DNA of 50,268 nt from a virus: positions 1 to 50,268 of the IMG/VR virus record IMGVR_UViG_3300036768_001504; one strand, written 5' to 3'. Below are positions 4,659 to 47,974 of this stretch, in pieces. Each line of letters starts with the position of its first letter. Within the stretch, counting starts at the first letter, position 1. The notes under the pieces are model-generated. The model searched no databases. It saw nothing but the letters and a program-made list of their open reading frames with translations, and was not told where the DNA came from. The translations under genes and the position numbers were made by a program.

Positions 4659-4910
4659 GGTGTTTCCTAGCGGTCTGGTGTCGCACAATGTGCCCTTGTT
4701 AAGTACCATTCCGCACGCGGCCTGCTCTCTGCTCATACTTTCGGCGCGCGGCCCGGCCTACGCGATGAAAAAAAGCAAGAGTGCGGGCGTTGGTATCTAT
4801 AGTGCCACCAGTCGTGGCGCTCTGATTCAGACGGCTTCGCGCCCGTCTCTTTCCGAAGCCGCGAAGCCGCTTTTGGTCACAGCGCGAAAGCCTGCCTGGG
4901 GGAAAGCCGC

Positions 4911-5715: not shown

Positions 5716-6261
5716 ATGAGCGAAACCACCGAAAGTTGGGAGAAACGCGCGGGCGAATCGAGCCGTGCCTACGCCGCCTTCTGCGTCTATCGCGATCTGG
5801 GGCCGGGCCGGACGCTGACGGCGGCCTATCGCCAGGCATCGGGCCGGGAGAAAGCGGTTCCGCCGGGGCAGTGGACGGGCTGGTATCAGGATCAGGAGTG
5901 GAGGCGCCGGGCGGACGAGTACGACGCCAAGATCGAGGCCGATACCCGCCGCGAACGGGAGCGGGCGCATCTGGCGGCGATCCGCGACTATCGCGCGCGC
6001 CAGCGCGCGCTGGCGCAGGCGACGCTGAAAGCGAGCATGGCTCTCCTGGAGAAGGCGAGCAAGCGCCTGAAGCAGATCGCGCCGGACGAGATCGAGACCC
6101 GGCATCTTGGCAACCTCTACCGTGCCGCCGCCGCGACCGCCAATGCCGCCTCCGAAGCCGAGGGGATCGCGCTCGCGCTGGACGATTTGCTTGATTCCTT
6201 AGATGCCGACACTGAAGCTCCTGACTCAGAGACATCTGCGCCGCAGAGAGCGTCGCGATAA
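5716..6261 (+). CDS. terminase small subunit-like protein
   Basis: A 181-residue protein placed directly before the large terminase. The N-terminal part (YAAFCVYRDLGPGRTLTAAY then W..WYQDQEWRRRADEYD) looks like the DNA-binding helix-turn-helix of phage small terminases, followed by long charged helices (RRERERAHLAAIRDYRARQRA) suited to ring assembly, and an acidic tail. Small terminases recognise the packaging site and hand DNA to the large subunit. The start ATG 5716 has a modest CGGAAG site. The gene overlaps the large subunit by 59 bases in another frame. The call rests on position and composition. Confidence 0.65.
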   Translation: MSETTESWEKRAGESSRAYAAFCVYRDLGPGRTLTAAYRQASGREKAVPPGQWTGWYQDQEWRRRADEYDAKIEADTRRERERAHLAAIRDYRARQRALAQATLKASMALLEKASKRLKQIAPDEIETRHLGNLYRAAAATANAASEAEGIALALDDLLDSLDADTEAPDSETSAPQRASR

Positions 6262-7909: not shown

Positions 7910-7921
7910 AAGGGAGGCACT

Positions 7922-8083
7922 ATGGACGGGCCGCTCACCTTCTTCTACTATATGGTCGCTTTCGGGACAGGCTGCCTCTATCTGGCCGCCTGTCTGCTCT
8001 TCGTGCTGCTGACCTACGCCGCCCTTATCGGCTGGCTGAAGGCGACCCCGGCACAGGATACCAGTCGGCGGGGGGACGCCTAA
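7922..8083 (+). CDS. small membrane protein
   Basis: A 53-residue protein with a good AGGGAGG ribosome site before ATG 7922 and TAA at 8081-8083, abutting the portal start (TAATTG). It holds one long hydrophobic stretch (about residues 7-39, including GTGCLYLAACLLFVLLTYA) and a short polar C-terminus. One or two membrane crossings are possible. It sits between terminase and portal, where phages often carry small inner-membrane proteins; no function can be assigned. Confidence 0.7.
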   Translation: MDGPLTFFYYMVAFGTGCLYLAACLLFVLLTYAALIGWLKATPAQDTSRRGDA

Positions 8084-9478
8084 TTGCCCGGTTCCATGAG
8101 TAAATTCTATGCGGCCCGCCAGCTTCTGGCGGCGGGATTCAAGTCGTTCCGCTTCTCCGGCTATGGCGGCGACAATGGCTCCGGGCCGGGCGGCTTCGCC
8201 CGCTGGGGCGGCTTCTCCCGCCCGCTTCCCGGCACGGACTACAACTTCCAGAGGGAGGCAGGCAACCTCTGGGAGAACTCGGTCGTTCTGGCGCTGATCA
8301 AGTGGCTTACCCGGAACTACCCGGAGGCGCATCAGGTCGTCACCCGGCCGGGCGCGGACGGCAAACCGCAAGTCCTGCTGGAACATCCCCTGCTCGACCT
8401 CCTGCGCAAGCCCAACCTCTGGTATGACCGGAGCGTGCTGGAAGCCGGGCTGCTGCTCTCGTATGTGGTGAACGGCAACGCCTATGCGATCCGGCTGCGC
8501 TCCGCGCTGGGGAAGCTCGTGGGGCTGCAATACGTGCCGCACTTCCGCCTGTCTCCCTACTGGCCGAAGGACGGGAGCGAATACATCACCGGCTATGTCT
8601 ACCGCGTGGACGGCGAGACCTACCTCTTTCCACGCGACGATGTGCTGCACATTCGCAATGGCCTGGATCCCCTGAACGACCGGGTGGGCCTCTCCGACCT
8701 GGCCGCCGTCCTGCGGGAGGTCTGCACGGATAATGAGGCCGCGACCTTCTCCTTTGCGCTGCTCAAAAACATGGGAATCCCTGGCGTGATCATCACCCCG
8801 AAGGAGATGGGGCTGGAACCGCTCACGCCGGAGCAGCGCGCCGAGTTCAAGCAGCGGTATCGGGAGAGTACGACGGGCGACTATCGGGGCGATGCGTTCG
8901 TCCACAATATCCCGATTGACGTCCATTCGCCGGGCTTCTCGCCCGAACAGATGGTACTCGACAAGACGCGCGAGATACCTGTCGGACGCATCTGTGCGGC
9001 CATCGGCATTGACCCGATGGTGCTGGGGCTGCCCTCGCCCAACAAAACCTACGCCAACTACGAGAGCGCGAAGGCGGCGGCCTACGATATGTGCCTCATG
9101 CCACTGCATCGGGTCTTCGACATGCAGATGACCGACCAGCTTCTGCCGGAGACCCTGAACACACATCCGAAGGATATGCTGGGGCGCGACTACGCCAACG
9201 TGCGCGGCCTGCAAGAGGATCAGAACGAACGACACAAACGGGCGCGGGAAGACTATGCGAAGGGGCTGATCATGCGCAGCGAGGGCAAGCGGATGATCAA
9301 CGAGCCGACGACCGCCGCCGATGATGTCTATATCACCGACTTGCAGATTTCGGTGGCGCAGATCGGACGGGAAGAAAACGCGGCGGAGGACAGCCCGCAG
9401 AAGACACGCCGCCGCCTGGGGGCGCTCTGGGCGCAGCGCCGTCGCGCGCGCCGGGAGCGGGAAGGAAAGGCCGCCTGA
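8084..9478 (+). CDS. portal protein, HK97-type
   Basis: A 464-residue portal, the dodecameric ring through which DNA enters and leaves the head. Typical features are VVNGNAYAIRLR, a PRDDVLHIRN..DP stretch, the REIPVGRICAAIGIDPMVLGL region and a basic C-terminal tail. TTG 8084 is favoured because GGGGGGA lies seven bases upstream; ATG 8096 is an in-frame alternative. It is flanked by the large terminase and a minor head protein, the normal head order. Confidence 0.92.
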   Translation: MPGSMSKFYAARQLLAAGFKSFRFSGYGGDNGSGPGGFARWGGFSRPLPGTDYNFQREAGNLWENSVVLALIKWLTRNYPEAHQVVTRPGADGKPQVLLEHPLLDLLRKPNLWYDRSVLEAGLLLSYVVNGNAYAIRLRSALGKLVGLQYVPHFRLSPYWPKDGSEYITGYVYRVDGETYLFPRDDVLHIRNGLDPLNDRVGLSDLAAVLREVCTDNEAATFSFALLKNMGIPGVIITPKEMGLEPLTPEQRAEFKQRYRESTTGDYRGDAFVHNIPIDVHSPGFSPEQMVLDKTREIPVGRICAAIGIDPMVLGLPSPNKTYANYESAKAAAYDMCLMPLHRVFDMQMTDQLLPETLNTHPKDMLGRDYANVRGLQEDQNERHKRAREDYAKGLIMRSEGKRMINEPTTAADDVYITDLQISVAQIGREENAAEDSPQKTRRRLGALWAQRRRARREREGKAA

Positions 9479-21342: not shown

Positions 21343-21380
21343 CCCTGCGTCGTTTCCCCCTTTGTCGTGAGTGATCTTTG

Positions 21381-24300
21381 ATGCAGATTTCCGATCTCCT
21401 CGTGCGCGTGCGCGCCGATATTTCGCAGGCGCAGACGGGCCTGCGCCAGATACGCACCGAACTCGAACAGACGGGGCAGGCCGCCCGTGAAGCGGGGGCG
21501 CAGTTCGATCAGTTCGCGGGGAAGATGACGCGCAGTTTCCGCGAGGCCGCAGCCGCGCAGCGCCAGTTTAACCAGGAACTGAGCCTGACGCGCGGGCGGC
21601 TGGCGGAGCTGACGCGCGGCGACGTGTTGGCGGCAGACCGGCTACGCTTCAAGGGCTTTATCGCCGAGGGCGATCTGGAACGGCTGCGGCGGGCGCGGGA
21701 AGAACTGCGGGAACTGACGACGCAGGCATCGGCAGACGAGGCGGCGGTGAACCGAGTCACGGCGGCCTACCAGCGATTCGACAAGGAGCTGCAGCAGACG
21801 CAAGCGCGGATCGCCGCGATCAAGAGCGGGGCGCTCAATGCGGGACTCTCGGCCAAATCCGACGGGCTGGTGAGCGATGGGGACATCGCGCGCCTGGCGA
21901 CCGCGAAGGCCGAACTACGGGAGCTAGACACCGCACAGACGCGCTTCCAGACCCAACTGGCGGCTTCGCGCCGGGAACTAGCCGCGATGCAGGGCGGAAC
22001 GTGGGAGCGTCTGCGGGAGACGGTGGCCGGAAACGCCCTGCCGCGCCTGCAAAAGCTGTATCCCGGCGTGCCGGACGCGGAACTGCAAAAGCTCGCCAAT
22101 ATCCAGCAGCAGACCGCCGGACTGGAGGCGCGCAAGAACCTCACCGGCAAGCTGACGAGCGGAGCCGCAAACACCGCGACGGGAATCCTGGGATTGGGCG
22201 TGCTGTCCGCGCTCGACTTCTCCTCCGTTGAAACCGCGCTGATTCGCCTCAAGAACAACGCGGTGATGGATCAGAAGGAGTTCGAGGAACTCCGCAAGAT
22301 CGTCCTGAAGCTGGCGACGGACACCGGCGCGCCTATCGAAGAACTGGCGCTCGGCTTCCGCCACATGAGCGACTTCGGCTTTCATGGGGCCGACGCCGCC
22401 AAAGTCATGACGGTCGCCACCCGCGCTGCCGTCGCGACCGGCTCCGACCTGGAGAGGACCGCGCAGCTTCTAGCGAAGGTGCTGAAAGAGAACAGCTTGT
22501 CCGCCAATGAAGCGGGCAAGGCCATGAACCTCCTCTGGTACGCGGCGGCCAACGCCGATGTCTCGATGGAGCAGTTAGTCGAGAAGGGCGGTCGGGTCTT
22601 TGCGATGGCCTCGAAGATGGGTGTCTCCTTGAAGGAGACGGCGGCGATCCTGTCTGTTTTCATGGCAAACGGCATTGATGCGTCGCAGGCGACGATTCAG
22701 CTGATAAACGCTCTCAATAAGCTGGTCATGCCGACAAAGGAGGTCCGGGACAAGCTCGACGCGATCACGCAGGCGACGGGCATCAACCTGCGGGAGACGT
22801 TCAGCCTTGCCGGGTTGCAGGCCAAAGGACTCTCCGGCGCATTCGAGGATGTGCGGCAGGCCGCCGTGCTGCTGCACGAGCCGTATGAGAGGCTGGCGCT
22901 GGAACTGTTCCCGAACCTGCGCGGAACCATCGGCGCGCTGATCGGCACGTCCGATTCAGGAATGCAGGGGCTGAAGGAGCGAATGGCGGACATGGCGCGC
23001 ATCGAGCGCGAGGAGTATACGCCCGTCCAGGAAGCCTTTACCGCGCAGCAGAAGACGATGACGGCGGAGATCGCCAAGACGGTACAGGCTATCCGGGTCG
23101 AGTTCCTGCCTGCCGGACAGAAATTCGCCGACATCTTCAAACAGGGGATACCGCTGGTCCGCGACTTTGCGGACATCCTGAAGCGGCTGCTGGATTTCTT
23201 CCTGAATCTGCCCAAGCCCGTGCGGGAGTTTGTCCTGGGTATCGGGGGGATCACCCTGGCGTTCAGACTGCTGGGCAACCCGATCACGGGCGTTATGGGA
23301 CTGCTCGGCGATCTCATTACCGTCTGGCGCAGGGTCAAAGCGGCCTCGGTCGAGGCGATGATCGCGCAGCAGCTTGCAGCGGATGCCGGAGGGTCGGCGG
23401 CGGGCGCAGGCGCGGCGGCAGGGGGGGTACGCGGCTTCTTCTCCCGCAACGCCGGACTGCTGGGCGCGATAGGGATACCCGCTGCCGTTCTCACCGCCGA
23501 GTATTACGGTGGCAAAGCCCTGCAGGAGACACTCTGGGCGGGGGATGCGCCGCGCACGAACGCGCGCTTCCAGGAAGGCATCGCGGCGAAGGAGCGGGAC
23601 CCGAACTACCTGCGGAGTCGTATCAAGGCGCTCTCCGAAGAGCAGCGGCGCATCAATTTCGGGCTGGAAGACTACAAAGGGATCCCCTCGAAAGAAGGCG
23701 AGCTGGTCGAGCGTAGCCATAGAGTCTACGAGGAGATGTCTCGCCTTCAGGACATTCTGGCGAAGCTGTCGCAGACCGCAGGCCCGGCAGGAACGGCGCT
23801 CAGTATGGAGATCGTCCGGCACGCTTCCGACGCGCTCAAAACTCCGGCGGGACAGGCGTCCTGTGCCTATTTCGCCTCGGAAGTCCTGCGGGCGGCGGGA
23901 GTGAACATCCCGCTCACGGGCAATGCGAAACAGCTTGCCGACAGGCTCCTGTCGGCAGGCGGCATTGCTAAGCCCGGCGCGCAGGCGGCTCCGGGCGACT
24001 ATCTGTTGTTTCATGGCCTGAAGTATGGCAACGCGCCGGGCCAGCGCGAAGGGTATCACGGCGCGATCTACCTGGGCGGTGGCCTGATGCGCCAGTCCTC
24101 CGGCGTGCCGGGTGTCAATCAGCGCATCACCACGGAGCCGTTCCGCGATGTGGCCCATGCGACGGCGATCTCCGTTCCCGCAGGGCTTTTCGGAGCCGCC
24201 TCCGCCCTGGGAGCCGCGACACGGGCGGCTGCCGAAGCCAGAGGCCCTTACGCGCCGCCGGGCGTGCTGGATGCGCTGCATGAAAAGACAAAGAAGCTCT

Positions 24301-26348
24301 CGGAGGCCGACCGCGAACTGCTTGCCTACAATAAGGAGATGGCGGCGGCGCAGGCGCGCTTAAACGCGCTGCAGACCGGCGGGAACAAGGCGGCGGAGCA
24401 GCTTGCCGGGAAGTATCGCCTGCTCTCCGATGCGCAGCGCCAGGCGCTTCAGACCGTGCAGGAGCGGATCCAGCGGAAGGAGCAGACGGCGGCGCAGGAG
24501 GCGAAGTTCCGTGAGCAGCTCACGCTTACGAACGCCAAAATCCGGGAAGCCCACACAGGCGAACTGGAAGGGCTGGCAAAGCTCAAGCAGCAGTACCCGC
24601 TGATTTCCGAGGAGCGGCTGAAATACCTGCTCCGCCAGCAGCAGGCCTTGGAGACGGCGGAGAAAGACCGGCAGACGCAGGAGAAGCTCAGGGGCGAACT
24701 CTCCGGCCTGAAGAGCCAGCTTCAGGGAACGCGCGCGGAGAGCGACCTGCACCGGCTCGCTTTCCAACTGACCGGGCAGACCTACGAGAAACTCTCCGCG
24801 CAGGCGCGCAAATTGGTGGACGAGATCATGGGCGTCAAGCGCGAACTGGCCGGGAATAGCGAAGTGGATAAGGCGCGCCGGCTTCTCGAAGAGGGGCAGG
24901 CACGGCTTACCATTATGCAGCTTCCCAAAGAGCAGCGCAATGTCGTTAATCAGTTCGGTGGGGAGGCGACCGAACGGCTTAAACTCTGGACCTCGATGAC
25001 CGAGGCACAGAAGGAGAATTTCGTTACCACCTACCGCAATATCGCAGCGAACGATGCGCTGGAAGAGTCCTACAAACGCGCCGAGGAAAATCTGGCGAAG
25101 TTCCATGCGGAGATGCAGGCTGGCATCAACGCCCATAGCGCCCGCCTTGCCGGGAACCCGGAGGAGGCGTCCTGGCAAGAGAGATTGGGCGCGAATGGCG
25201 GCCAATTTTTCAAAGACCTGACCTCTGGGGGCGATTGGGCGACGATCATCGGGCGCATCGCGCAGGCACGCGAAGAGTTTCATCGGTTCTATCAAGGGCA
25301 GGAGGAAAAAAAGAAGCTGGACGCAGCGACCGAAGCGTTCAAGTCGCTGAATGCCCAGCTAGACGTACAGATGGAACTGCTACGTCTGCGTGCGTCGGGC
25401 CAGAGTGATACGGCAGAGGGCGCGTGGGCCGAATGGCTGCGCGGTCAGAAACACCCGGAGAGATACCTCGATGATCCTAACGAATATGCCCGCACGATGG
25501 CGCGCTTCAAGGAGCAGTGGGAATTCTCGCGGCAGATCGAACACCTCGATAAGTTCCGACAGTCCCTCGCGAACACGCAGAAGGAACTCAGCCTCCTGAC
25601 GGCGGGCAGCGACTTCGCGCGGTTCCGGGCGCAGATGCAGGAGATAGATAAGGACGGGAAGCTCCTCCAGCCGTTCACCCAGGAACAGCTACGCAAGATG
25701 TTCAACGCCCAGCAGAATCTCGAAACGGTGCGCCTTTTCGCCGACGGCACACGGGGCATCCTGCGGCAGATGTTCACGGACATCCTGCATGGCGGGAAAG
25801 ACCTGTGGAGCCATCTGGTCGGCGGGTTTACCAAGATGTTCGAGGAGATCGCAGTCAACTACCTGACCAGCCAGTTCTACAACCTGATCGTGCGGGGGCT
25901 ATTCGGGGCGGGCGGCGCGGCTCCGGCAGCAGGCGGTGGCGGCGGCTTCCGTATCGGAGGGCTGATCGGCGGAGTCATCGGCGGCCTCTTCGGGGGTGGC
26001 GGCGGGACAACGCTCAGCGGCATCGCGGGGCCGGTCAGTATCGGCGCTGGCGGCACAGGATACGACTTTTTGACAGGCAGCTTCCAGGGCGCATTCGCGA
26101 CCGGAGGGCCTCTCCTGGGGGGGCGGGCGGCCCTCGTCGGGGAGAACGGGCCGGAACTGTTCCTTCCCCATAGTGCGGGCCGCATGATACCGAACGAGGA
26201 CCTAGGGGCCTTTAGCGGCGGGAATACAGTGATCCTCCATGTGCATGGCGTCTCGGATGCGGCGAGTTTCCGGCGCTCGTCGGGGCAGATCCTGCAGGAT
26301 GCACACCGGGGCCTGCAACGCGCGGCCTCGCGGAACCGGAGAGGATAG
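21381..26348 (+). CDS. tape measure protein with internal peptidase domain
   Basis: A 1655-residue protein setting tail length; by the usual 0.15 nm per residue this suggests a tail of roughly 250 nm. The N-terminal 250 residues are coiled coil. Residues about 280-560 match the phage minor tail/TP901 core (MEQLVEKGGRVFAMASKMGV). Hydrophobic segments follow (near 620-650, ITLAFRLLGNPITGVMGLLG). Residues about 805-945 form an NlpC/P60- or CHAP-like peptidase with Cys828 (QASCAYFASEVL) and His893 (GYHGAIYLGGG). Long coiled coils follow, and the C-terminus is Gly-rich with the lambda-type ending FATGGP..GGRAALVGENGPELF. ATG 21381 is favoured over TTG 21378. Confidence 0.93.
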   Translation: MQISDLLVRVRADISQAQTGLRQIRTELEQTGQAAREAGAQFDQFAGKMTRSFREAAAAQRQFNQELSLTRGRLAELTRGDVLAADRLRFKGFIAEGDLERLRRAREELRELTTQASADEAAVNRVTAAYQRFDKELQQTQARIAAIKSGALNAGLSAKSDGLVSDGDIARLATAKAELRELDTAQTRFQTQLAASRRELAAMQGGTWERLRETVAGNALPRLQKLYPGVPDAELQKLANIQQQTAGLEARKNLTGKLTSGAANTATGILGLGVLSALDFSSVETALIRLKNNAVMDQKEFEELRKIVLKLATDTGAPIEELALGFRHMSDFGFHGADAAKVMTVATRAAVATGSDLERTAQLLAKVLKENSLSANEAGKAMNLLWYAAANADVSMEQLVEKGGRVFAMASKMGVSLKETAAILSVFMANGIDASQATIQLINALNKLVMPTKEVRDKLDAITQATGINLRETFSLAGLQAKGLSGAFEDVRQAAVLLHEPYERLALELFPNLRGTIGALIGTSDSGMQGLKERMADMARIEREEYTPVQEAFTAQQKTMTAEIAKTVQAIRVEFLPAGQKFADIFKQGIPLVRDFADILKRLLDFFLNLPKPVREFVLGIGGITLAFRLLGNPITGVMGLLGDLITVWRRVKAASVEAMIAQQLAADAGGSAAGAGAAAGGVRGFFSRNAGLLGAIGIPAAVLTAEYYGGKALQETLWAGDAPRTNARFQEGIAAKERDPNYLRSRIKALSEEQRRINFGLEDYKGIPSKEGELVERSHRVYEEMSRLQDILAKLSQTAGPAGTALSMEIVRHASDALKTPAGQASCAYFASEVLRAAGVNIPLTGNAKQLADRLLSAGGIAKPGAQAAPGDYLLFHGLKYGNAPGQREGYHGAIYLGGGLMRQSSGVPGVNQRITTEPFRDVAHATAISVPAGLFGAASALGAATRAAAEARGPYAPPGVLDALHEKTKKLSEADRELLAYNKEMAAAQARLNALQTGGNKAAEQLAGKYRLLSDAQRQALQTVQERIQRKEQTAAQEAKFREQLTLTNAKIREAHTGELEGLAKLKQQYPLISEERLKYLLRQQQALETAEKDRQTQEKLRGELSGLKSQLQGTRAESDLHRLAFQLTGQTYEKLSAQARKLVDEIMGVKRELAGNSEVDKARRLLEEGQARLTIMQLPKEQRNVVNQFGGEATERLKLWTSMTEAQKENFVTTYRNIAANDALEESYKRAEENLAKFHAEMQAGINAHSARLAGNPEEASWQERLGANGGQFFKDLTSGGDWATIIGRIAQAREEFHRFYQGQEEKKKLDAATEAFKSLNAQLDVQMELLRLRASGQSDTAEGAWAEWLRGQKHPERYLDDPNEYARTMARFKEQWEFSRQIEHLDKFRQSLANTQKELSLLTAGSDFARFRAQMQEIDKDGKLLQPFTQEQLRKMFNAQQNLETVRLFADGTRGILRQMFTDILHGGKDLWSHLVGGFTKMFEEIAVNYLTSQFYNLIVRGLFGAGGAAPAAGGGGGFRIGGLIGGVIGGLFGGGGGTTLSGIAGPVSIGAGGTGYDFLTGSFQGAFATGGPLLGGRAALVGENGPELFLPHSAGRMIPNEDLGAFSGGNTVILHVHGVSDAASFRRSSGQILQDAHRGLQRAASRNRRG

Positions 26349-26409: not shown

Positions 26410-27660
26410 ATGATCGATGACGTCCGCTTTCCAGAGGATATAAGCTATGGGGCGCAGGGCGGGCCGCGTTTTGTGACGCAGATCGTGGTGAGTGGGCGGG
26501 GCAAGGAGCGCCGTAATCGCCTCTGGCGGCGGGCGCTCCATCAGTTTAGCGTCTCGCATGAGATGCTGCGCCCCGATGAGTCCCATGCCCTCCTGGACTT
26601 CTTTTTCGCGCGGCAAGGCAAGACGCGCGGCTTCCGCTTCAAATGGTGGATGGACTACTCTACCGATCAGCCCATCGCCGGGGCAAAGCACGCGCTCTTG
26701 CCCCTATCGGCGACGGTGTTCCAGCTCCAGAAGCTCTATACCGACGCTGGCGGCAGTTATGCGCGACGCATCACGCGCCCGGTCGCCGAGACGGTGCATC
26801 TCTATCACCCGACAACGGGAGTAGAACTGACCTCCGGATTCACGCTCGACGCCAATACCGGCAAGGTCACCTTCGCGGTAGCGCCGGGGTATACGCCGGA
26901 AGCGACCTTCGAGTTCGACCTGCCCGTGCGGTTCGGCACGGATGAGATGGAGATGGTGGATGTCAGCCTGGTCGAGCAGGAGTGGACACGTATCCCTCTG
27001 GTGGAGATTCTCGAAGGCGACAGCCTGGGACTGGGCGGCGGCGGCACAACCGCCTTTACAGAGACGCGCTTCCCGGAGGACATCGCCAATGGCGCGCAGG
27101 GGGGGCCGCGTTTTGTGACCGCGGTCATCAAGGCCGAATCCGGCGCGGAGGGCCGCACCCCGATCTGGCCGCGCGGCAGACATCGCTTTGATGTAAGCCA
27201 TGCGTTGCGCAACCCGGAACAGGCGCAGGCGCTCTTAGCGTTCTTCTACTGCCGGGGGGGACGACATCAGGGCTTCCGGCTGAAATGGCAGCGAGACTAC
27301 TCTACCGATCAGCCCGAGGCCGGAGCAAAGCACACGACCGCGCCGATAGACAGTACGCGCTTCCAGCTACAGAAGGTCTATACCAGTGGCTCCGTCTCCT
27401 ACGCACGCCCGATCACAAAGCCGCGCGCCGAGACCGTGCGCCTCTATCGGCCCGACACGGGCGCGCTGATCGCAAGCAGCGATTACGTTCTGGACGATAC
27501 GACCGGCGTCGTGACCTTCGATTCCGCGCCCGGATTCACCCCGAAGGCGCGCTTCGAGTTCGATTGCGCGGTGCGCTTCGATAGCGACGAGATGCAGATG
27601 ACCGACGAGAGTGGAGCGGCGGCGAGCTGGCCGCGCATTCCCATCGTCGAATTGCCTTGA
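26410..27660 (+). CDS. distal tail protein with two tandem DUF2460 domains
   Basis: A 416-residue protein made of two copies of the DUF2460 (TIGR02217) unit, about residues 1-205 and 218-416, joined by a Gly-rich linker (LGLGGGGTTAF). Each copy repeats RFPEDI..GAQGGPRFVT, then FDVSH / FSVSH, GFR.KW..DYSTDQP, FQLQK.YT, P.AETV.LY and the ending VRF..DEM.M.D. One copy is the normal length of this family (gene transfer agent g12-like). The protein would form the tail-tip ring joining tube and hub. ATG 26410. Confidence 0.88.
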   Translation: MIDDVRFPEDISYGAQGGPRFVTQIVVSGRGKERRNRLWRRALHQFSVSHEMLRPDESHALLDFFFARQGKTRGFRFKWWMDYSTDQPIAGAKHALLPLSATVFQLQKLYTDAGGSYARRITRPVAETVHLYHPTTGVELTSGFTLDANTGKVTFAVAPGYTPEATFEFDLPVRFGTDEMEMVDVSLVEQEWTRIPLVEILEGDSLGLGGGGTTAFTETRFPEDIANGAQGGPRFVTAVIKAESGAEGRTPIWPRGRHRFDVSHALRNPEQAQALLAFFYCRGGRHQGFRLKWQRDYSTDQPEAGAKHTTAPIDSTRFQLQKVYTSGSVSYARPITKPRAETVRLYRPDTGALIASSDYVLDDTTGVVTFDSAPGFTPKARFEFDCAVRFDSDEMQMTDESGAAASWPRIPIVELP

Positions 27661-27669
27661 AAGCAAGCC

Positions 27670-29655
27670 GTGTCTACCGTTATCGTCAACCTCAATGTAG
27701 CGACGCCCGGCTGGGTGGATACCGGCCTAGTCGTGACGCCCGGACAGAGCCTCAAGGTAACGGCTTCGGGCAGCGTGCAGTGGTCGCCCGGGAAGTTTGC
27801 GTTTCCCGAAGGGACGTATCCGCCTGGCTACACGGACCTGACCTATCCGGCGGACAGCAGCCCTTCGGCCTACAACCCGGACAACGTGCTGGAATCCTTC
27901 GACGAGAGCGGCGGGCTGTTTCTCACGCATGACGTGCCACCCTACGCCCTGGCCGTCGTGGTCAAAGAGGATGACGGCGCGCCTCCGGCAGCAGGCGAGA
28001 GCGGTCTGGTCTCTGGGGCGCTGCGCCCTAACCGCGCCACGCTCTATACGGCAGAGGCCCTGCATGGCGGCGCGGGCGGGCGCGTTTGGATCGCCTTCAA
28101 TGACAACCATTACGCCGACAACTCCGGCACATTGGTCGTCAACCTGCTTGCCATCGACTCCGGCGCGGTCGGCGCGAACGGCTGCCCCACCTTCGTAGGG
28201 ATCACGACCGGCACGGCGGCAGACGTCTACCTGGTCTTTGATGTCAGTCCGTCTATGTCGAGCGCCTACGGCAGCAGCACGCGCTTTGCGGCGGCCAAAG
28301 CCGCCATCGGGCAGGCCCTGACCAACCTGCAAAACGGGGCGGCGAACCGCGTCGGCCTGGTCACGTTCTCCTACCTGTTTTTCAGCTATGGCGAGCTGGC
28401 GGGAACCTACTACCAGCAAGATAGCCCGCTCACATCCGACATCGCCGCCGTCAATGCGCTCGTGCAGGGCCATGCGACCGGCGGCGGCACGGGAACCGGC
28501 ACGGCCCTCGCGGCGGCGCGCAGGTATATGGAGGCCGAGGGGAATCCGGCGCATCAGAAGATCCTGCTCCTGGTCTCGGATGGACAGTGGAACTACGGCC
28601 TCGATCCGCACACGGTCATCACCGACCTGAAGGCCGCGCATCCCGACTGGCTGGTCTATGCCGTTGACATCAACGACGGCGCTCCGAATGAGAGCAACGA
28701 GTTCATCGGCTCCTCGGTCGGAGACGGCTTCTACAGCGCCAGCAACCCGGAGCAGTTGGCGCGTGCGCTTAATCTGCTCACGTTGCAGGCCGTGATGAAA
28801 CGCGGCTTCTCCGATGCGTTTACCGCCGCGCTCGCTTCGGAGACCACAAACCTCTGCGCTCTCCTGCGCATAGAGCGCAAAGACGGCATGGTGCTGGGCT
28901 TTACGACGCACGATGAAGACCTGCTCGTGGACGGCCAGCTGTACGAGACGCTCGACAGTGTTGAGGCGACCGTGCTGCGGCAAGAAGTGGGCAGCGGCAT
29001 TGATAACATGGATGTGGCGGGCATCCTCTCCTCGACGCGCATCACGGAGGACGACCTGCGCGCCCGGCGCTATGATGGGGCAACGATTACGCTTTTTCTG
29101 CTGGATTGGGAGACTCTGACGGCCTCTCCGATCCTGGTGCGCGGCAATTTCGGCGAGGTGCGCCTGACGGACGGCAAGTATGTGGCCGAGATCCGCGGGC
29201 TCATGCAGCGTCTCTCGCAACAGGTGGGGCATGTGACCCAGCCCACCTGTTCGGTGCTGCGCTTCTGCGACGCGCAGTGCGGCCTGGATATCGCCGACTT
29301 CACCTATGCCGCCGAGATCGCCACGACCGGCAGCGCACGCCTCTTCACCGTCCTGCCCGCCGAAGGTGTCACGTTCCCGGCCTTCTCCTTCCGCTACGGC
29401 ATCGCCCGAATGACCTCCGGCGACAATGCAGGGCTGGAACGTGAGATTAAAGACTGGACGCCCGCCTCCGGCACGGTCGAGTTGCAGGAGCCGTTCCCGT
29501 TTCTGCTCGCGTCAGGCGACACGCTGGAACTGGAAGTCGGCTGCGACCGGAAGCTGCCCAGTTGCATCGGGTTTGACAACGCTGCCAATTTTCGAGGTTT
29601 TCCCTATGTCCCCGGCACGGACAAGATCAACGCACGGGGCCGCCCGCCGCGCTAA
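27670..29655 (+). CDS. tail hub protein: LecA-like + von Willebrand A + DUF2163
   Basis: A 661-residue three-part protein. Residues 10-162 resemble a LecA/PA-IL-type carbohydrate-binding sandwich (WVDTGLVVTPGQSLKVTASG, FNDNHYADNSGTLVVNLL). Residues about 183-370 are a vWA domain with all metal-site motifs: DVSPS at 191-195, GGGTGTGTAL near 273, LLVSDG near 303. Residues about 378-661 are the DUF2163/BR0599-type hub found in GTA g13 (TTHDEDLLVDGQLYE, QPTCSVLRFCDAQCGLDI). GTG 27670, nine bases after the previous stop. The two added domains probably bind cell-surface sugar or protein; family hubs normally lack them. Confidence 0.85.
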   Translation: MSTVIVNLNVATPGWVDTGLVVTPGQSLKVTASGSVQWSPGKFAFPEGTYPPGYTDLTYPADSSPSAYNPDNVLESFDESGGLFLTHDVPPYALAVVVKEDDGAPPAAGESGLVSGALRPNRATLYTAEALHGGAGGRVWIAFNDNHYADNSGTLVVNLLAIDSGAVGANGCPTFVGITTGTAADVYLVFDVSPSMSSAYGSSTRFAAAKAAIGQALTNLQNGAANRVGLVTFSYLFFSYGELAGTYYQQDSPLTSDIAAVNALVQGHATGGGTGTGTALAAARRYMEAEGNPAHQKILLLVSDGQWNYGLDPHTVITDLKAAHPDWLVYAVDINDGAPNESNEFIGSSVGDGFYSASNPEQLARALNLLTLQAVMKRGFSDAFTAALASETTNLCALLRIERKDGMVLGFTTHDEDLLVDGQLYETLDSVEATVLRQEVGSGIDNMDVAGILSSTRITEDDLRARRYDGATITLFLLDWETLTASPILVRGNFGEVRLTDGKYVAEIRGLMQRLSQQVGHVTQPTCSVLRFCDAQCGLDIADFTYAAEIATTGSARLFTVLPAEGVTFPAFSFRYGIARMTSGDNAGLEREIKDWTPASGTVELQEPFPFLLASGDTLELEVGCDRKLPSCIGFDNAANFRGFPYVPGTDKINARGRPPR

Positions 29656-30151
29656 ACGCCCCGCGCTCACGCCGGAGGCCATCGTGGCGACCGCGCGTAG
29701 CTATCTGGGCGTGCCGTTCGTGCATAACGGGCGGACGCGCTTCGGCCTCGACTGCGTGGGCCTCTTAATCGTGACCGGCCAGGCGCTGGCGCTGCTGGAC
29801 CACTTCCAGGACGACACCTATGGCCGCCACATTGACGCCGCCCGCCTGCGCGCCGAACTGGAGACCTATCTGACGCCCCTGCCGGAGCCGACCGCGTATC
29901 AGGAGGCCGTGCCGTGGCAGCCAGGCGACGTGCTGCTCTTTACCATCCGTCGCAACCCGCAGCATACGGCTCTGCTGACCGAGACCGGGCCGGAGCCGCG
30001 CTTTATTCACGCCTGTCAGAGCGCGCGTCGGGTCGTGGAGGCGCGCTTGGATAGCCGTTGGCAGGAGCGGCTCGTGGGCGTGTTTCGCTGGAAAGCCTTC
30101 CCGATCCCGGAGCCGCACCGCCCGACCTATTTCGAGAGAGACGTTCCCTAA
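29606..30151 (+). CDS. NlpC/P60 tail peptidase (GTA g14-like)
   Basis: A 181-residue cell wall peptidase. Likely catalytic Cys is in RFGLDCVGLL and His in NPQHTALLTE, with RFIHACQSARRVVEARLD following. It begins inside the end of the hub gene (overlap 50 bases, ATG 29606 with CGAGG upstream) and follows the g12-g13-g14-g15 order. It would cut peptidoglycan at entry. Confidence 0.88.
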   Translation: MSPARTRSTHGAARRAKRPALTPEAIVATARSYLGVPFVHNGRTRFGLDCVGLLIVTGQALALLDHFQDDTYGRHIDAARLRAELETYLTPLPEPTAYQEAVPWQPGDVLLFTIRRNPQHTALLTETGPEPRFIHACQSARRVVEARLDSRWQERLVGVFRWKAFPIPEPHRPTYFERDVP

Positions 30152-30157
30152 TCCGCT

Positions 30158-32272
30158 ATGGCAAACATCGTCTTAGGGGTTCTTGGCGCGGGCGTTGGCG
30201 CGGTCTTCGGCAACCCGATGCTCGGCTTTTCGTTGGGCATGGCGGTCGGCGGCGTGCTGTTTCCCCCCAAGCTACCGGATCAGAGTCGGGGCAAGCTCGA
30301 CGACCTGCGGGTGACCGGGAGCGGCTGGGGGGTGGCGATCCCGCGCTGCTGGGGCCGGGTGCGGCTGGGCGGCAACGTCATCTGGATGGCCCACTACAAA
30401 GACGGCATCGCGGTTCCCTCCAACACGCCCGGCGCCGTCAATCTCCTGGAGCATGTCTCCGATACGCACGAGGGCGGCAAGGGCGGCGGGGGCGTTACGG
30501 TTCACAACTACTCCTACACGACCAGCATCCAGGTGCTGGTGTGCGAGGGGCCGGTCAGCGCCATTACCAAAATCTGGGCCGACAGCGACCTGGTGATCTA
30601 CGACAGCGCGCAAGACCCTCCCAGCAAGTACGACCTCCGAATCGCGCTCGGCACGGACGACCAGTTGCCGGACAGCTACGTGGAGAGCATCGAAGGCGCG
30701 GGGAACGTGCCGGCCTATCGCGGCTTTTGCGTCGTCACGATCCAGGACATGGACCTGACCGACTTCGGCAACCGGCTTCCGAACCTCAATTTCGAGGTCG
30801 ACCGGGGCGTGGCCCTGGTCAAAGACCCGCTGGAAGCGTTGGCACGCGCGTGCGGGATGACGCGCGATGATTACGATTTCTCACAGGCCAACGCCCCCCT
30901 GGAAGGCTTGGTGCTGGCGCAACGCGAGGCCGCCTCGCAGAGCCTGGAGCCGCTCTGTGAGATATTCGCGCTGGATTTCACAGAGTCGGACGGCAAGCTG
31001 CGCGTGCTGCCGCGCGGCGGCGCGCCCGTGATGACCCTAGATGCCGACGATCTGGGCGCGATAGACTGGCCGCCCCATGACGACGACGAACCGGCGCCGA
31101 CCCTAGAGACCACGCTGGGACAAGACCTCGAACTGCCGCGCACGATGACGCTCACCTACTTCTCACGGCAGGGCAACTATCAGCAGGCGTCCCAGCAGGC
31201 CATCCGGGCCACCAAGGGCGACATTCAGCAGGAGGAGACCTACAACACCCCGCTCGTGATGAGCGACGATGCGGCGCGGCAGGCGGCGGAACGGCGGCTC
31301 TATCAACGGTGGCTGGAGCGGGACACCTATAAGTTTTCTCTGGACTGGCGTTACCTGGTCCTGCTGCCCGGCTCCCCCGTCAACCTCCCGGTCAACGGAC
31401 TGCACCGGGTGCGCATCGTCCGCATGGACCTGGCGCTGCCGGGCGTCATCCAGTTCGAGGCTGTTCCTGCCGATGACGAGGGCGGCGTCTACTGCCAGGT
31501 CGTCTCCGGGGGCAGCACGGCGCAGACCGCGCCGGTCGTGCAGAGCGTGCATCCCGTCACGTTCACCGCGTGGAGCGGCACGGAGTTGCAGGATGCCGAC
31601 GGCGCGTCGCCCGGCTTCTATGTGGTCGGCACGTGGGCCGAGGGCGGCAGTGGCGGGCAGATCTACTATTCGCCGGACGGCGGCGCGAACTACGTGCTGG
31701 CAGGCAGCGTGCGCGAGCGCAGCGTCTTCGGCACGACGACCTCGGCCCTGGCCGACGGCGCGACCGCCGATGCCTGGGATACCACCCATAGCGTCGGCGT
31801 GGCACTTACGGAGCGGGGCAGTTTGCAATCGGCGGCGCAGGCGGAAGTGGAGAACACGGCCACGAACGCCGTCCTGATCGGGCGCGAGATCGCCGGGTTT
31901 GCCAGCGCGACCCCGACCGGCGCGCTCTTCTATACGCTTTCGACGCTCCTGCGTGGCAGGCGCGGGAGCCTGATGACCGGACACGGCATCGGAGAGCCGT
32001 TCGTGCTGCTCTCGCGCGCGGTGCAGCGAGTCTCCGTCGCCGAGAGCCTGATCGGGCAGACGGTCTATGTCAAAGTGGTCGCGCCGGGCCTGACGCTCTC
32101 CGAAGTCGCCCCGGTCGCGGTGATCATCGCCGCGAACCACCCCCCTTATGCGACCACCGACACGCTCTCCGGCACGGTCTACACGCATGGCCTCGTGCCG
32201 CTCTCCAATGGCGATCCGGCGGAACCCTCCGTGCTATTCGATGCTGGCGCGGTGATCCTGATCGAGGTCTAA
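30158..32272 (+). CDS. tail tip / host specificity protein (GTA g15-like)
   Basis: A 704-residue protein beginning with a hydrophobic Gly-rich stretch (VLGVLGAGVGAVFGNPMLGF) common in tail-tip proteins, then a region with VRLGGNVIWMA, TSIQVLVCEGPVSAITKIWA, YRGFCVVTIQDMDLTDFGNRLPNLNFEV, typical of the phage-tail_3/GTA megatron family. Later parts include a fibronectin-like or beta module (SGTELQDADGASPGFYVVG) and a C-terminal beta domain. It is shorter than RcGTA g15. Likely forms the central spike platform. Confidence 0.85.
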   Translation: MANIVLGVLGAGVGAVFGNPMLGFSLGMAVGGVLFPPKLPDQSRGKLDDLRVTGSGWGVAIPRCWGRVRLGGNVIWMAHYKDGIAVPSNTPGAVNLLEHVSDTHEGGKGGGGVTVHNYSYTTSIQVLVCEGPVSAITKIWADSDLVIYDSAQDPPSKYDLRIALGTDDQLPDSYVESIEGAGNVPAYRGFCVVTIQDMDLTDFGNRLPNLNFEVDRGVALVKDPLEALARACGMTRDDYDFSQANAPLEGLVLAQREAASQSLEPLCEIFALDFTESDGKLRVLPRGGAPVMTLDADDLGAIDWPPHDDDEPAPTLETTLGQDLELPRTMTLTYFSRQGNYQQASQQAIRATKGDIQQEETYNTPLVMSDDAARQAAERRLYQRWLERDTYKFSLDWRYLVLLPGSPVNLPVNGLHRVRIVRMDLALPGVIQFEAVPADDEGGVYCQVVSGGSTAQTAPVVQSVHPVTFTAWSGTELQDADGASPGFYVVGTWAEGGSGGQIYYSPDGGANYVLAGSVRERSVFGTTTSALADGATADAWDTTHSVGVALTERGSLQSAAQAEVENTATNAVLIGREIAGFASATPTGALFYTLSTLLRGRRGSLMTGHGIGEPFVLLSRAVQRVSVAESLIGQTVYVKVVAPGLTLSEVAPVAVIIAANHPPYATTDTLSGTVYTHGLVPLSNGDPAEPSVLFDAGAVILIEV

Positions 32273-35168: not shown

Positions 35169-35480
35169 ATGAGCGTCACGGCAGAGCGGAGCCTCCCGGA
35201 AACGGGGAGGACAGACGGACAGACGGTCAACTACCGCCTCCTAAAGAGGGCGGCTTGTCCCTACGCGGAAGCCTGCGCCTCGTTGCGGAACATTATGGAC
35301 GACTTCCCCCTCTGGCTGGATGAAGAGGAGGTGCGCGCCCTGGCAGAAGAGATTTCTGAACGGCTGGACCGCGCGCCCTACCCGGATGTCGAGACCCTCG
35401 CGGCCCCCCTCTTCGCGTTTGGCGCGCGCTTGCGCCTGGAAGCGAACGGGGAAGACGGGCTGGAGGCGCGAGGCGCATGA
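35169..35480 (+). CDS. small acidic protein coupled to the sigma gene
   Basis: A 103-residue frame ending in TGA overlapping the sigma gene start as ATGA. The C-terminal 65 residues (DEEEVRALAEEISERLDRAPYPDVE) look like a genuine acidic helical domain. The N-terminal 40 residues are encoded by a two-hairpin sequence found again at 38769-38836, so the real start may be later (ATG 35294) or the repeat was co-opted. A regulator of the sigma factor is possible but unproven. Confidence 0.5.
   Translation: MSVTAERSLPETGRTDGQTVNYRLLKRAACPYAEACASLRNIMDDFPLWLDEEEVRALAEEISERLDRAPYPDVETLAAPLFAFGARLRLEANGEDGLEARGA
35226..35292 (-). repeat. two-hairpin conserved element, copy B (IS200/IS605 or omega RNA-like)
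   Basis: Read on the minus strand this ends GACAAGCCGCC..CTTTAGGAGGCGGTAGTTGAC, a stem with a TTTA-containing loop closed by CCGCC/GGCGG, preceded by a second, weaker stem. The same 67-base layout recurs at 38769-38836 with changes on both sides of the stems. It resembles right ends or omega RNA ends of IS200/IS605-type elements as I remember them. No tnpA or tnpB is nearby. It lies inside a short reading frame. Confidence 0.5.
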
Positions 35481-36190
35481 CCGGAGCCGACGCGGGCCGC
35501 CGTCAAGGAAGCGGGGCCAGGCCCGCTTCCTGCGGGCGACAGACGCCCCCGACCGCGCGGAAAGGCCCTCGGACCGAGGCGGAGGCGGTGGCCTCGGTGG
35601 AAGCGCGGATTCATCAGGTGGCGCGCTGGTACGCCAATCCCCACTGCCCGGAAGAGGATCTGTGCCAGGAGGGGCGGCTCGGCGCGGTGCTGGGCTTTCG
35701 CAAGTACGACCCGGCGCGCGGCATCGCGTATGCGACCTTCGCCGACTACTGGATCCGCCTCTATATCCGGCGGGGCTACCAGAACTACAGAGGTCTCATC
35801 CGTCTCCCGCTCTGGCGACAGACCTCCGACCAGGCCCGCCGCCTGCCGGAACTGTGCGAGGCGACGAAGGTGGTCTCGCTCTCCGGGATAGCCGAGGATG
35901 AGGAGGCCCTGCCCCTAACCAGTGCGACCCGGCAGACCGACCGCCTGCCGATAGACGAGCGTCTGGCGCTCTCTACCGCGTGCGCCCGGCTCCCGGCAGG
36001 GGAGCGGGAGGTGCTGACCCTGCGCTACCGGGAAGAGTGGTCGCAGGACGAAGTCGCCGCCCGGATGGGACGCTCCCGCGCGCGTATCGGCCAGATCGAA
36101 GCGCAGGCCCTTGCGCGCCTGCGCCAACTATTAGGAGACGACGGAAGCGGTTCTCCGTCCTCAAAAAACCCCCCTCCCCGCGTCCTTTAA
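35477..36190 (+). CDS. phage-borne sigma-70 family RNA polymerase sigma factor
   Basis: A 237-residue sigma factor. Region 2 covers EEDLCQEGRLGAVLGFRKYD and IAYATFADYWIRLYIRRGYQ; region 4 is LPAGEREVLTLRYREEWSQDE through MGRSRARIGQIEAQALARLRQ with a clear helix-turn-helix. The N-terminus is a low-complexity tail. It lies between fibre and lysis genes and overlaps the preceding acidic protein as ATGA. It could switch transcription to late genes or act on host genes; target promoters are not identified. Confidence 0.85.
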   Translation: MTGADAGRRQGSGARPASCGRQTPPTARKGPRTEAEAVASVEARIHQVARWYANPHCPEEDLCQEGRLGAVLGFRKYDPARGIAYATFADYWIRLYIRRGYQNYRGLIRLPLWRQTSDQARRLPELCEATKVVSLSGIAEDEEALPLTSATRQTDRLPIDERLALSTACARLPAGEREVLTLRYREEWSQDEVAARMGRSRARIGQIEAQALARLRQLLGDDGSGSPSSKNPPPRVL

Positions 36191-42534: not shown

Positions 42535-42846
42535 CTACCCTCTCTTCGCGTAGCGATAGTAGAACGGCGCAACCACCTGCCACAGACAGGCCAGGCAGAG
42601 ATCGGTGTGGCGGGAAGGCGGCTCCTGACCGCACTGGATGCAGACGCCAGCCTCCTTACGCAAGTACTCCGTCAGACCGGGGCGGCAGAGGTCGAGCGCC
42701 TCCTGTTCCTCTGGAAGCAACACGCCCTGGCTGTCTCGATACTGCATCCCCGAGGGCGTCAGCCGGAACTGCACGCCTCGCTCCCGAAAACCGGCAAGGA
42801 TCGCCGCCCGGTTCTCCCATTTGCTAACGCCAGTCGGCATCGTCAT
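42535..42846 (-). CDS. TubC_N-like / zinc-ribbon small protein
   Basis: A 103-residue protein. Residues about 14-62 (ILAGFRERGVQFRLTPSGMQ, LPEEQEALDLCRPGLTEYLR) look like the TubC N-terminal docking fold often fused to phage primase-type proteins. The C-terminal CIQCGQEPPSRHTDLCLACL is a zinc ribbon. It overlaps the end of the helicase gene by 23 bases, so it probably works with replication proteins. Confidence 0.55.
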   Translation of the reverse strand: MTMPTGVSKWENRAAILAGFRERGVQFRLTPSGMQYRDSQGVLLPEEQEALDLCRPGLTEYLRKEAGVCIQCGQEPPSRHTDLCLACLWQVVAPFYYRYAKRG

Positions 42847-44095
42847 CCTCTCTGTAGGGCCGCTTCGTCAGATCCGCAGAATCGCAATCCCCTATAGGGG
42901 GTTGCGATTCTGCGGATCTGGTTTCGAGGGGAATCAGGCGATAAAACGGCTTGCCATGCGCCTCGCGACGGCGTTCGATGATCCGCTCTTCCAACATAGA
43001 GCGGAGGGCCTTATTGGTGTTATGCTCCCCAATCTCTTCGTTTTTACAATAGTGGAGGATGTCCGCCAGGGCATACCAGTTGCCGTCCGCCAGGCAGTGG
43101 TAGATCTCTTCCTGCGCCTGCACCCTCTTCGGTGGTTTCGACGCACCGGTACTCTCGCCTGCCGCCTTCCAGTCGTTGAACGTGACCCGCTCGAAGCGGT
43201 CGGCCCCGGCCATACGCGGGAAGATCGAGGCGCGGCCCTCGAAGCGGTTCTTGATGATCTGTAGACGGCAGACATCATCGCGCTCTTCCATCTCGCCGGT
43301 GTAGTCGTCGTCGCGCTCTTCCGTATTGCCGCGCGTGCGGAACACCAGCCCCACGTCGGCGGCGGCCAGGCGCGCGCTGGCCCCGCGCCCGTAGTTGCCG
43401 GAGGAGTCCTTGCCGGTGTGGTGGACGATCAGGAGGCAGGCGTTCGTCTCGCGGCTGATGGCGATCAGATCTTTCATCTGCCGCGCCGCCTCTGCATTGT
43501 CGTTCTCGTCCAGGGTGTTGAAGATGTTGGTGATCGGGTCAAGGATGCAGAGGTCTATCTGCTCCTCCTGCAAGTAGTCGGAGAGTTCCCCCTGATCCAG
43601 TGCGTTCGCGAGGTTCTTCTGCCGCCAGTCGTGGAAGATGAGCGTATCGGGCCGTCCTTCGTTGATCCGATCCAACTTCTTGGCGCAGTTGTTTCCGGCG
43701 TTCTCCGGGTCAATATAGAGGACATGAAGCGGACGGCCCAGCCCGTATTTGATGTCCCAGAGCGGCTCATTCCGGGCGGCATGGATGGCGACATTGTAGA
43801 GGAGGCTGGACTTGCCCGCGTGTGTCTCACCGATCAGCAGCACGACGGAGGCGGGATAGAGGCCGAACCAGAGGCGTACCGGGTCCTCGCCCGGCGGGAT
43901 CTCCGAAGCGCGGCGGATTCCCTGGCGGAAGGCGGGCCGTCCCTCCCTCGTTCCGGGCATAGTGAGGACTCGTTCGGCGAAGCGGCGTAGGGCTTTCGGG
44001 TCTTCCTGGAAACGCTGGCTCAACTTGACCGACAGAATCTCCAGGTCGGGCTGAGTTAAATCCGGGATCTCCGCCCAGAACTCGGTGGAAGGCAT
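42824..44095 (-). CDS. RepA/RecA-like replicative helicase
   Basis: A 423-residue AAA_25-type ATPase. Walker A GETHAGKSS (residues 89-97), Walker B IDLCILDPI, then LLIVHHTGKDSSGNYGRGAS typical of RepA-family hexameric helicases. A C-terminal winged helix (QEEIYHCLADGNWYALADIL, TNKALRSMLEERIIERR) may bind DNA or the origin. ATG 44095 is 11 bases after AAGGAG; an upstream GTG (44107) is in frame. With the adjacent primase it forms the replication core. Confidence 0.85.
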   Translation of the reverse strand: MPSTEFWAEIPDLTQPDLEILSVKLSQRFQEDPKALRRFAERVLTMPGTREGRPAFRQGIRRASEIPPGEDPVRLWFGLYPASVVLLIGETHAGKSSLLYNVAIHAARNEPLWDIKYGLGRPLHVLYIDPENAGNNCAKKLDRINEGRPDTLIFHDWRQKNLANALDQGELSDYLQEEQIDLCILDPITNIFNTLDENDNAEAARQMKDLIAISRETNACLLIVHHTGKDSSGNYGRGASARLAAADVGLVFRTRGNTEERDDDYTGEMEERDDVCRLQIIKNRFEGRASIFPRMAGADRFERVTFNDWKAAGESTGASKPPKRVQAQEEIYHCLADGNWYALADILHYCKNEEIGEHNTNKALRSMLEERIIERRREAHGKPFYRLIPLETRSAESQPPIGDCDSADLTKRPYREDDDADWR

Positions 44096-44196
44096 ATGGC
44101 AAGGCACTCCTTATCAGAAGAGTAGGTACTGGCCTCCGCGCGTGCAGAGACGGCATGGCACGTTCCATGCGTGTCATCAACGTGCAACCGTGCGTC

Positions 44197-46795: not shown

Positions 46796-46929
46796 TCCGC
46801 CCTCTTTCTTGCGCCGATCTTGCGTCCCTCTTGCGCCGAAGGGCGCAGGCTGTGAATCACCAGCGTGCAGAGCGGCCAGCCGATGAGGACTTCCACAAGG
46901 CAGGCAAACACCACGACATCTGCGCTCAT
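46792..46929 (-). CDS. 45-residue membrane protein
   Basis: ATG 46929 with AGGAGCC upstream. One hydrophobic segment (VVVFACLVEVLIGWPLCTLV) and a basic tail (EGRKIGARKRAE). Overlaps both neighbours as ATGA, strong support for a real gene. Confidence 0.65.
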   Translation of the reverse strand: MSADVVVFACLVEVLIGWPLCTLVIHSLRPSAQEGRKIGARKRAE

Positions 46930-47513
46930 ATCCGGCTCCTGAGTGTTGTAATGGCCCGCAGGGTACGGTCGCAGGGCGGGAGTACCGGCAGGCCGAGGAA
47001 GTCGAAAAAGGCCGCCTCGCAGGGGCAGGCCAGCTTCTCGGCGGGCTGGCCGGGCCGCACGCGCCAGAGATAGCCGTCTTGCTGGAAAAGGCCGGGCGGC
47101 ATGAGACCGCCCTGATCGCACCGGGTGACCACCTTGCGGGTGAAGTCGGCATCGCCCGTGCGGATCACCAGCGTGTTGCCGAAGTTCGCCGCATCGGCCA
47201 GGAAGAGGTCTACCGCGATGCCGGGGCCGGGGACGATCAGCCGCTTATAGCGCGGGCCGTTGCGTTTTACCTGGGTATCCCAGGCGAGTTTGCCCTGGGC
47301 GATAGCCCGGCAGAGCGCCCCGTCGAGGGCGGTCGTGACGGGCATCTCGCGGCCCTGCAGATCGTAGTCGAACTGCGGGCGCACGACGATCTCGATGTCT
47401 TTGACCTGCGGCTTCATGCGCCGGAGGCTCCCGGCCAGCACGATCTCCCGGCAGGCGGGGGCGATCAGGTTACAGACCTGAAGGGCGACTTCCGTCGCCT
47501 CGAGGCGATTCAT
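46926..47513 (-). CDS. DNA polymerase X-like nucleotidyltransferase
   Basis: A 195-residue protein with the polymerase-beta-type palm: VLAGSLRRMKPQVKDIEIVV supplies GS and the acidic pair, and GIAVDLFLAD the third acid. It lacks the fingers of full Pol X enzymes, so template-dependent synthesis is uncertain; a tailing or repair activity is possible. It overlaps the neighbouring genes on both sides, placing it in the early operon. Confidence 0.8.
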   Translation of the reverse strand: MNRLEATEVALQVCNLIAPACREIVLAGSLRRMKPQVKDIEIVVRPQFDYDLQGREMPVTTALDGALCRAIAQGKLAWDTQVKRNGPRYKRLIVPGPGIAVDLFLADAANFGNTLVIRTGDADFTRKVVTRCDQGGLMPPGLFQQDGYLWRVRPGQPAEKLACPCEAAFFDFLGLPVLPPCDRTLRAITTLRSRI

Positions 47514-47974
47514 AACGCAGTCTCCTTTGCCGTCTGGCGGTCGGAGCGAGAACCGGCGTCGCCGGTCTCTTGTCGCCAGGCGAGCAGGCAGCGGATGTCC
47601 AGCCGCCAGTTCATTGGGAGTGGATAGTCGAGGCACTGCGTGATACGCCGGGCGCGGGTAGGATCGAGGCCGCAGTGGACAAGCCAGGTTGCCCGGAAGA
47701 TACGGTAGGCTCGCAGCGCCGAGGCGTCTTCTTCGGCCAGGCCGCGCAGCGTGCGCGTGTCCAGGCGACAGAAACAGCCGGAGGCATAGAGCCGCAGACA
47801 GGAATCGGGCTGCGCGGGATCCCACAGAAGGGCCGTCAGGCGGCGTCCGCAGTGCAGACAGTAGACCCAGCCATGCGGGTTCCAGCGCGCGCCGCCCATC
47901 GGGTGTCCTTCGCGGGTACGAAGGCCGCCCGGTTTGACAAACGAGGGGGTGTCAGGTAGACTGCGTGTGGACAT
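47510..47974 (-). CDS. zinc-ribbon phage protein
   Basis: A 154-residue protein from ATG 47974 with AAAGGA upstream (ATG 47992 is also in frame). Paired cysteines in WVYCLHCGRR and LYASGCFCR may hold zinc; a helical C-terminus (NWRLDIRCLLAWRQETGD) follows. Overlaps the nucleotidyltransferase start as ATGA. Not recognised. Confidence 0.55.
   Translation of the reverse strand: MSTRSLPDTPSFVKPGGLRTREGHPMGGARWNPHGWVYCLHCGRRLTALLWDPAQPDSCLRLYASGCFCRLDTRTLRGLAEEDASALRAYRIFRATWLVHCGLDPTRARRITQCLDYPLPMNWRLDIRCLLAWRQETGDAGSRSDRQTAKETAL

Follow-up and report, generated by a model that had tools for sequence, protein, structure and literature searches.

A baseplate hub gene in an uncultured phage encodes a complete hub of the gene transfer agent (GTA) type preceded by two further domains: a distant relative of the lectin PA-IL (LecA) and a von Willebrand A (vWA) domain with an intact MIDAS metal site. 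The gene lies in the GTA-type tail operon of the window, the whole 50,268-nucleotide stretch of IMG/VR record IMGVR_UViG_3300036768_001504. We interpret the product as an adhesion-decorated ("evolved") hub that would equip the baseplate with a metal-dependent adhesion module in three copies, and give this reading a probability of about 0.6. Related vWA domains recur at the tail tip of many other phages, in hub, distal tail (Dit) or megatron proteins.

Hub gene and tail operon

The gene is read in one frame (664 codons from stop to stop, three beyond the 661 residues of the protein), in the order lectin-like domain, vWA domain and hub (residues 381–651) (Table 1). The preliminary description had assigned the last of these to the DUF2163 hub of GTA-type tails, and profile searches bore this out: besides the two Pfam domains, TIGR02218, the NCBIfam model for the baseplate hub of phages and gene transfer agents, scored 177.9 bits (E = 3e-52, cut-off 80.5). 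The hub segment of the full-length AF2 model reached pLDDT values mostly above 85, and its top Foldseek matches were RcGTA (6tba_7A, E = 3e-20), roseophage R4C (8gtc_P, E = 3e-18) and baseplate chains of JBD30 and Chi. The cysteines matching C527, C537, C625 and C632 are Fe–S ligands in the RcGTA and R4C hubs (PMC7296036, PMC10276861). Both of these hubs (Rcc01696 g13, PDB 6tba; vBDshSR4C_014, PDB 8gtc) belong to the same family, with the same two Pfam domains and four cysteines, but comprise only ~290–300 residues and lack the N-terminal lectin-like and vWA domains. Their gene order, tape measure–Dit–hub–peptidase–megatron, is identical to that of the window, where the hub sits between a DUF2460 Dit upstream and an NlpC/P60 peptidase and the megatron downstream. 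The vWA-hub family phrog_15205 matched the protein at its C-terminus only (E = 0.003), the vWA domain lying outside the match.

Table 1 Features of the hub gene and neighbouring tail genes (window coordinates).
Feature	Position	Strand	Basis
Tape measure protein	21378..26348	+	PF10145 E=4e-24, PHROG tape measure families
Distal tail protein (Dit), DUF2460 in tandem (55% identity between the two repeats)	26410..27660	+	
Hub gene extended N-terminally by lectin-like and vWA domains	27670..29655	+	GTG start to stop, 661 aa, unbroken frame
PA-IL/LecA-like domain, residues ~13–160	27706..28149	+	BLAST to contig L128 E=4e-6; two-sequence profile against PDB
vWA domain, residues ~185–370	28222..28779	+	PF00092, residues 185–363, E=7.2e-14, 52.8 bits (cut-off 23.8)
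MIDAS motif 1, DVSPS (D191, S193, S195)	28240..28254	+	Invariant in 25/25 vWA domains
MIDAS threonine T274	28489..28491	+	Invariant in 25/25; 32/32 IMG/VR tail-tip representatives covering the site
MIDAS aspartate D304 (LVSDG)	28579..28581	+	Invariant in 25/25; 33/33 IMG/VR tail-tip representatives covering the site
ATG of Met376, the ancestral start of the hub and possibly a site of internal initiation	28795..28797	+	Position and AGG 5 nt upstream
Hub attachment domain PF09931, residues 381–540	28810..29289	+	E=3.4e-46, 157.8 bits (cut-off 26), covers 1–160/160
Four conserved cysteines C527, C537, C625, C632	span 29248..29565	+	All in conserved columns
Hub C-terminal part PF09356 (BR0599), residues 574–651	29389..29622	+	E=2.7e-21
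NlpC/P60 peptidase gene between hub and megatron	29426..30151	+	PF00877 E=4.9e-6
Short megatron-type central baseplate protein, 704 aa, no vWA	30158..32272	+	Profile matches

Since both hub domains and all four Fe–S cysteines are kept, and the confident model resembles RcGTA and R4C, the extension reads as an addition onto a complete hub. The junction agrees with this. The distance from the end of the Dit domain to the start of the hub domain clusters at ~33 bp among 104 hubs with an upstream Dit, against 1171 bp in the window. In 41 of 61 other hubs a methionine lies exactly 17 residues ahead of a conserved TT, and Met376-Lys377 occupies the same spot. Spacing and start position together argue that the lectin–vWA part became fused, in frame, to the front of a hub that itself stayed unchanged.

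The preliminary description had taken the hub family to be compact and free of additions, which is true of GTA hubs, but phage hubs repeatedly carry inserted domains. Six other DUF2163 hubs have such inserts (L004, L006, L014, L016, L018 and L020), mostly between the second and third Fe–S cysteine; the insert of L006 occupies the β1–β2 loop, and that of L020 looks LamG-like. In L019 (1245–4001) the hub lies in one open frame behind an upstream part of ~640 residues resembling a glycoside-hydrolase-like region that is located upstream of Dit in L003 and L007.

Tandem DUF2460 repeats occur in the window's Dit alone among 107 Dit ORFs. The RcGTA Dit, unlike that of the window, has a single domain and forms a hexamer, whose odd and even copies differ in conformation to meet the threefold baseplate (PMC7296036), while JBD30 achieves this with a trimer whose Dit subunits have two domains each (PMC11445458). 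By analogy, the window seems to have reached the JBD30-type solution by duplication within the GTA-type family: a tandem Dit would give a 3 × 2 pseudo-hexamer matching the trimeric hub, and the duplication fits the hub's threefold symmetry where the tail end passes between three and six. The megatron lacks profile positions ~216–757 (~540 positions), the region of the peripheral domain, and the adhesive surface may therefore have shifted to the hub. The peptidase gene probably starts further inside its listed frame.

Residues ~829–916 of the tape measure protein contain a possible NlpC/P60- or CHAP-like peptidase segment (weak, E = 0.08). Elsewhere in the window, a sigma-70 region 2 protein (PF04542; 3439–4191, minus strand) and an ORF that reads as a sigma-70 region 4 protein (35477–36190, plus strand) are possibly two phage-encoded sigma factors, and a DNA polymerase β thumb domain protein is encoded at 46926–47825 on the minus strand (PF14791, E = 1.7e-5, at the cut-off).

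The lectin-like and vWA domains

The LecA/PA-IL-like character proposed for the N-terminus held at the level of distant homology and found no Pfam match. As a single sequence, the lectin segment matched nothing in Pfam (PF07828 not even at E ≤ 10) or the PDB. A degenerate pattern based on its loop motif retrieved a viral contig (L128) encoding a protein 28–31% identical over ~140 residues. A profile of the two, run against 177,635 PDB sequences, returned only two matches at E ≤ 10, to PA-IL (E = 0.022) and to PllA (E = 0.12); N-terminal strand and calcium loop both align, in the right order. Because L128 was retrieved through the window's loop pattern, its agreement in the loop partly reflects that selection; the PDB search is subject to less bias, though the profile itself contains the loop. 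The motif concerned, FNDNHYADNSG (residues 143–153), aligns with the ND..NSG motif of the PF07828 lectins, although the calcium loop of PA-IL is longer by two residues; the motif is compatible with Ca²⁺-dependent galactose binding. We consider distant kinship to PA-IL likely and sugar binding putative.

Other searches with the N-terminal part returned little: direct comparison with PF07828 domains of proteobacterial genomes gave no usable match, and the lectin–vWA part as a single-sequence query found none in viral contigs and phages. A scan of genome contigs returned only one plain hub. Two candidate relatives of the N-terminus, L122 (RidA-like) and L121, proved unrelated on sequence inspection. 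The AF2 model of the lectin domain alone had a pLDDT of 29 and was not used. The product of the L128 gene (5411–6130) is secreted and PEP-CTERM-like and includes a PA-IL-like domain.

The vWA domain carries all the metal-site motifs that the preliminary description had pointed out. We compared its MIDAS residues across 25 domains, namely that of the window, 14 from phage tail tips and 10 from bacteria, and all five were invariant. Among IMG/VR tail-tip representatives, where the MIDAS threonine and aspartate lay outside the scan pattern, these two residues were likewise conserved and the flanking loops were variable. Structure prediction, which the preliminary description had proposed as a check, modelled the hub confidently and the extension (residues 1–375) poorly: in the vWA domain the order of alternating strands and helices fits a Rossmann-type fold at low confidence only, pLDDT being mostly below 60 because the alignment lacked relatives. 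Of the single sequences found, a bacterial vWA protein came closest (L110; 29% identity, E = 4e-12), and a profile of the window and bacterial vWA domains gave no confirmed match in viral contigs. Solved structures nearest to a profile of tail-tip vWA domains include SpaC and other pilus-tip adhesins, TRAP and collagen VI; no phage chain was found among the solved structures matching this profile.

Tail-tip vWA domains in other phages

Searched against phages, the window's vWA domain reached Variovorax phage BAPIC_0004 at E = 0.4, and on inspection the protein was again a hub, with the vWA inserted in its attachment domain. Homologous domains were found in 27 INPHARED phage records, in hub, Dit or megatron proteins. 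The hub is the carrier in PaMx28 (gp30), Septimatrevirus QH3, Xanthomonas phage Mallos, BAPIC_0004 and Bordetella phages; Dit in RcHartney and RcTitan (gp22 in each); and the megatron in Bordetella phage MW2 (APL99216.1, annotated "von Willebrand factor type A"), Erythrobacter phage R6L (gp79), Bhz59 and Elanor. At the best 80 IMG/VR loci the vWA-bearing ORFs were 78 megatrons, 6 hubs and 3 Dit proteins, one locus having none. Some phages carry the domain twice: both hub and megatron bear it in L146–L151, and several phage records have it in two places. In Bordetella phage MW2 (L138) it occurs in the hub (3983–5386) and in the megatron (5876–8629), a doubling seen in several other phages.

Like the window's protein, the hubs of PaMx28, QH3, BAPIC_0004, Mallos and the Bordetella phages (PHROG 15205) join a vWA domain with a complete MIDAS covalently to a DUF2163-type hub. 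They belong to another hub subfamily, however, and have no lectin, and their vWA replaces the β1–β2 loop of the attachment domain, as alignment with the vWA-free hubs of S3, R6L (gp82) and RcHartney (gp23) revealed, whereas that of the window is N-terminal, before β1. MW2 APL99216.1, R6L gp79 and gp22 of RcHartney and RcTitan carry the same kind of tail-tip domain with an intact MIDAS, on a megatron or Dit rather than a hub. The fusion is thus less singular than first described, vWA domains being present in hub, Dit or megatron of many siphophages; the combination of a lectin-like domain and an N-terminal vWA with a GTA-type hub had no second example among the records found. We found no description of tail-tip vWA domains in the open-access literature, and the module is apparently both widespread and undescribed.

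In the tree, the 14 phage tail-tip vWA domains formed one group (100/100) that excluded the window, with those of PHROG 15205-type hubs as a clade of their own; the window's domain stood on a long branch with bacterial vWA domains. This grouping and the different insertion point favour an independent recruitment by the window's phage, but a tree uniting it with the phage domains was not rejected by an AU test (p = 0.36).

Function of the extension

By homology, the C-terminal 286 residues form the standard hub trimer beneath the Dit ring; in front of it, the vWA and, outermost, the PA-IL-like domain would project from the baseplate, each present three times. The ligand of the lectin-like domain would be a surface glycan, probably bound with Ca²⁺, whereas the MIDAS, holding Mg²⁺ or Mn²⁺, would engage an acidic group on a surface protein or polymer or on an adjacent baseplate protein; jointly, the two domains would provide divalent-cation-dependent host attachment close to the DNA exit. 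Metal-dependent adhesion at the tail tip had already been suggested in the preliminary description and is the best-supported, though putative, reading. It is favoured by the recurrence of vWA domains in Dit, hub and megatron, the three ring and core proteins of the tail end; by the secreted and cell-surface adhesive proteins among the nearest solved vWA structures; by the invariant MIDAS and PA-IL-like first domain; and by an extension that is in frame, has native codon usage and meets the hub at an ancestral start codon. Both RcGTA and R4C have sites for carbohydrate binding on Dit, hub, megatron and fibres alike (PMC7296036, PMC10276861). The evolved Dit and Tal proteins of siphophages of lactic acid bacteria likewise have adhesion domains added to tail-tip ring proteins (PMC8540738), but these are CBMs in phages of Gram-positive hosts, without vWA. 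The thin lectin profile, the shorter calcium loop and the poor model of residues 1–375 weaken the adhesion reading, as does the prospect that initiation at Met376 leaves the extension on some hub copies only.

A further reservation is that vWA domains elsewhere can also act in purely structural protein–protein contacts. The main rival, which we regard as unlikely, is that the MIDAS mainly serves as a clamp within the virion, binding an acidic residue of an adjacent Dit, hub or megatron subunit and steadying the baseplate until triggered, the lectin-like domain alone touching the host. Such a partner contact would account for vWA domains in three neighbouring ring proteins, sometimes two in one phage, and for a MIDAS conserved while its flanking loops vary, although the conserved MIDAS fits adhesion equally well. 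It sits poorly with the many adhesive domains among the nearest solved relatives and with the absence of the vWA from closely related phages: the S3 hub lacks the domain that the related QH3 hub carries, which argues that it is not generally needed for assembly.

It is more doubtful that one gene gives two products, with internal initiation at Met376 supplying a compact form for baseplate construction and the full-length protein serving as a minor or optional decoration. The coincidence of Met376 with the start of other hubs makes such initiation possible, and an AGG lies nearby; against this, the Shine–Dalgarno match is weak, the frame is continuous with no stop, and Met376 may be a mere relic. 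An assembly or gene-fusion artefact is very improbable, as the preliminary description had held: the record is from an uncultured virus and its exact architecture is absent from the other records found, but codon usage in the lectin-like, vWA and hub segments fits that of the phage's other structural genes and differs from the +1 and +2 frames, the frame is unbroken, the tail-gene order is coherent, and separate vWA–hub fusions occur in cultured phages. A MoxR-type chaperone function with an AAA ATPase, as proposed for haloviruses whose vWA proteins adjoin AAA ATPase genes (PMC7911831), can be dismissed on position, for the window's vWA belongs to the same polypeptide chain as a structural hub of the tail, and the sole AAA domain among the scanned ORFs (AAA_25; 42824–44107, minus strand) lies 13 kb off.

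A more speculative reading, which we hold only tentatively and rate as improbable, is that the vWA domains of hub, Dit and megatron act as integrin-like switches, relaying metal-dependent ligand engagement through the ring proteins so that the baseplate iris opens and DNA is ejected; the window would then represent an independent recruitment of this switch, with a lectin placed in front for first capture.

As to how siphophages sense the surface of Gram-negative hosts at the baseplate, the vWA domain, which recurs in three different tail-tip proteins and whose MIDAS is strictly conserved, offers a specific and testable candidate for engaging a receptor in a metal-dependent manner. To this the window adds a GTA-type hub in which the vWA is paired with a lectin-like domain, together with a Dit duplication that fits the symmetry. 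The lectin–vWA–hub protein is less unique than had been claimed and more interesting as a pointer to a tail-tip module whose occurrence in many phages suggests a widespread, largely unrecognised way of gripping the host.
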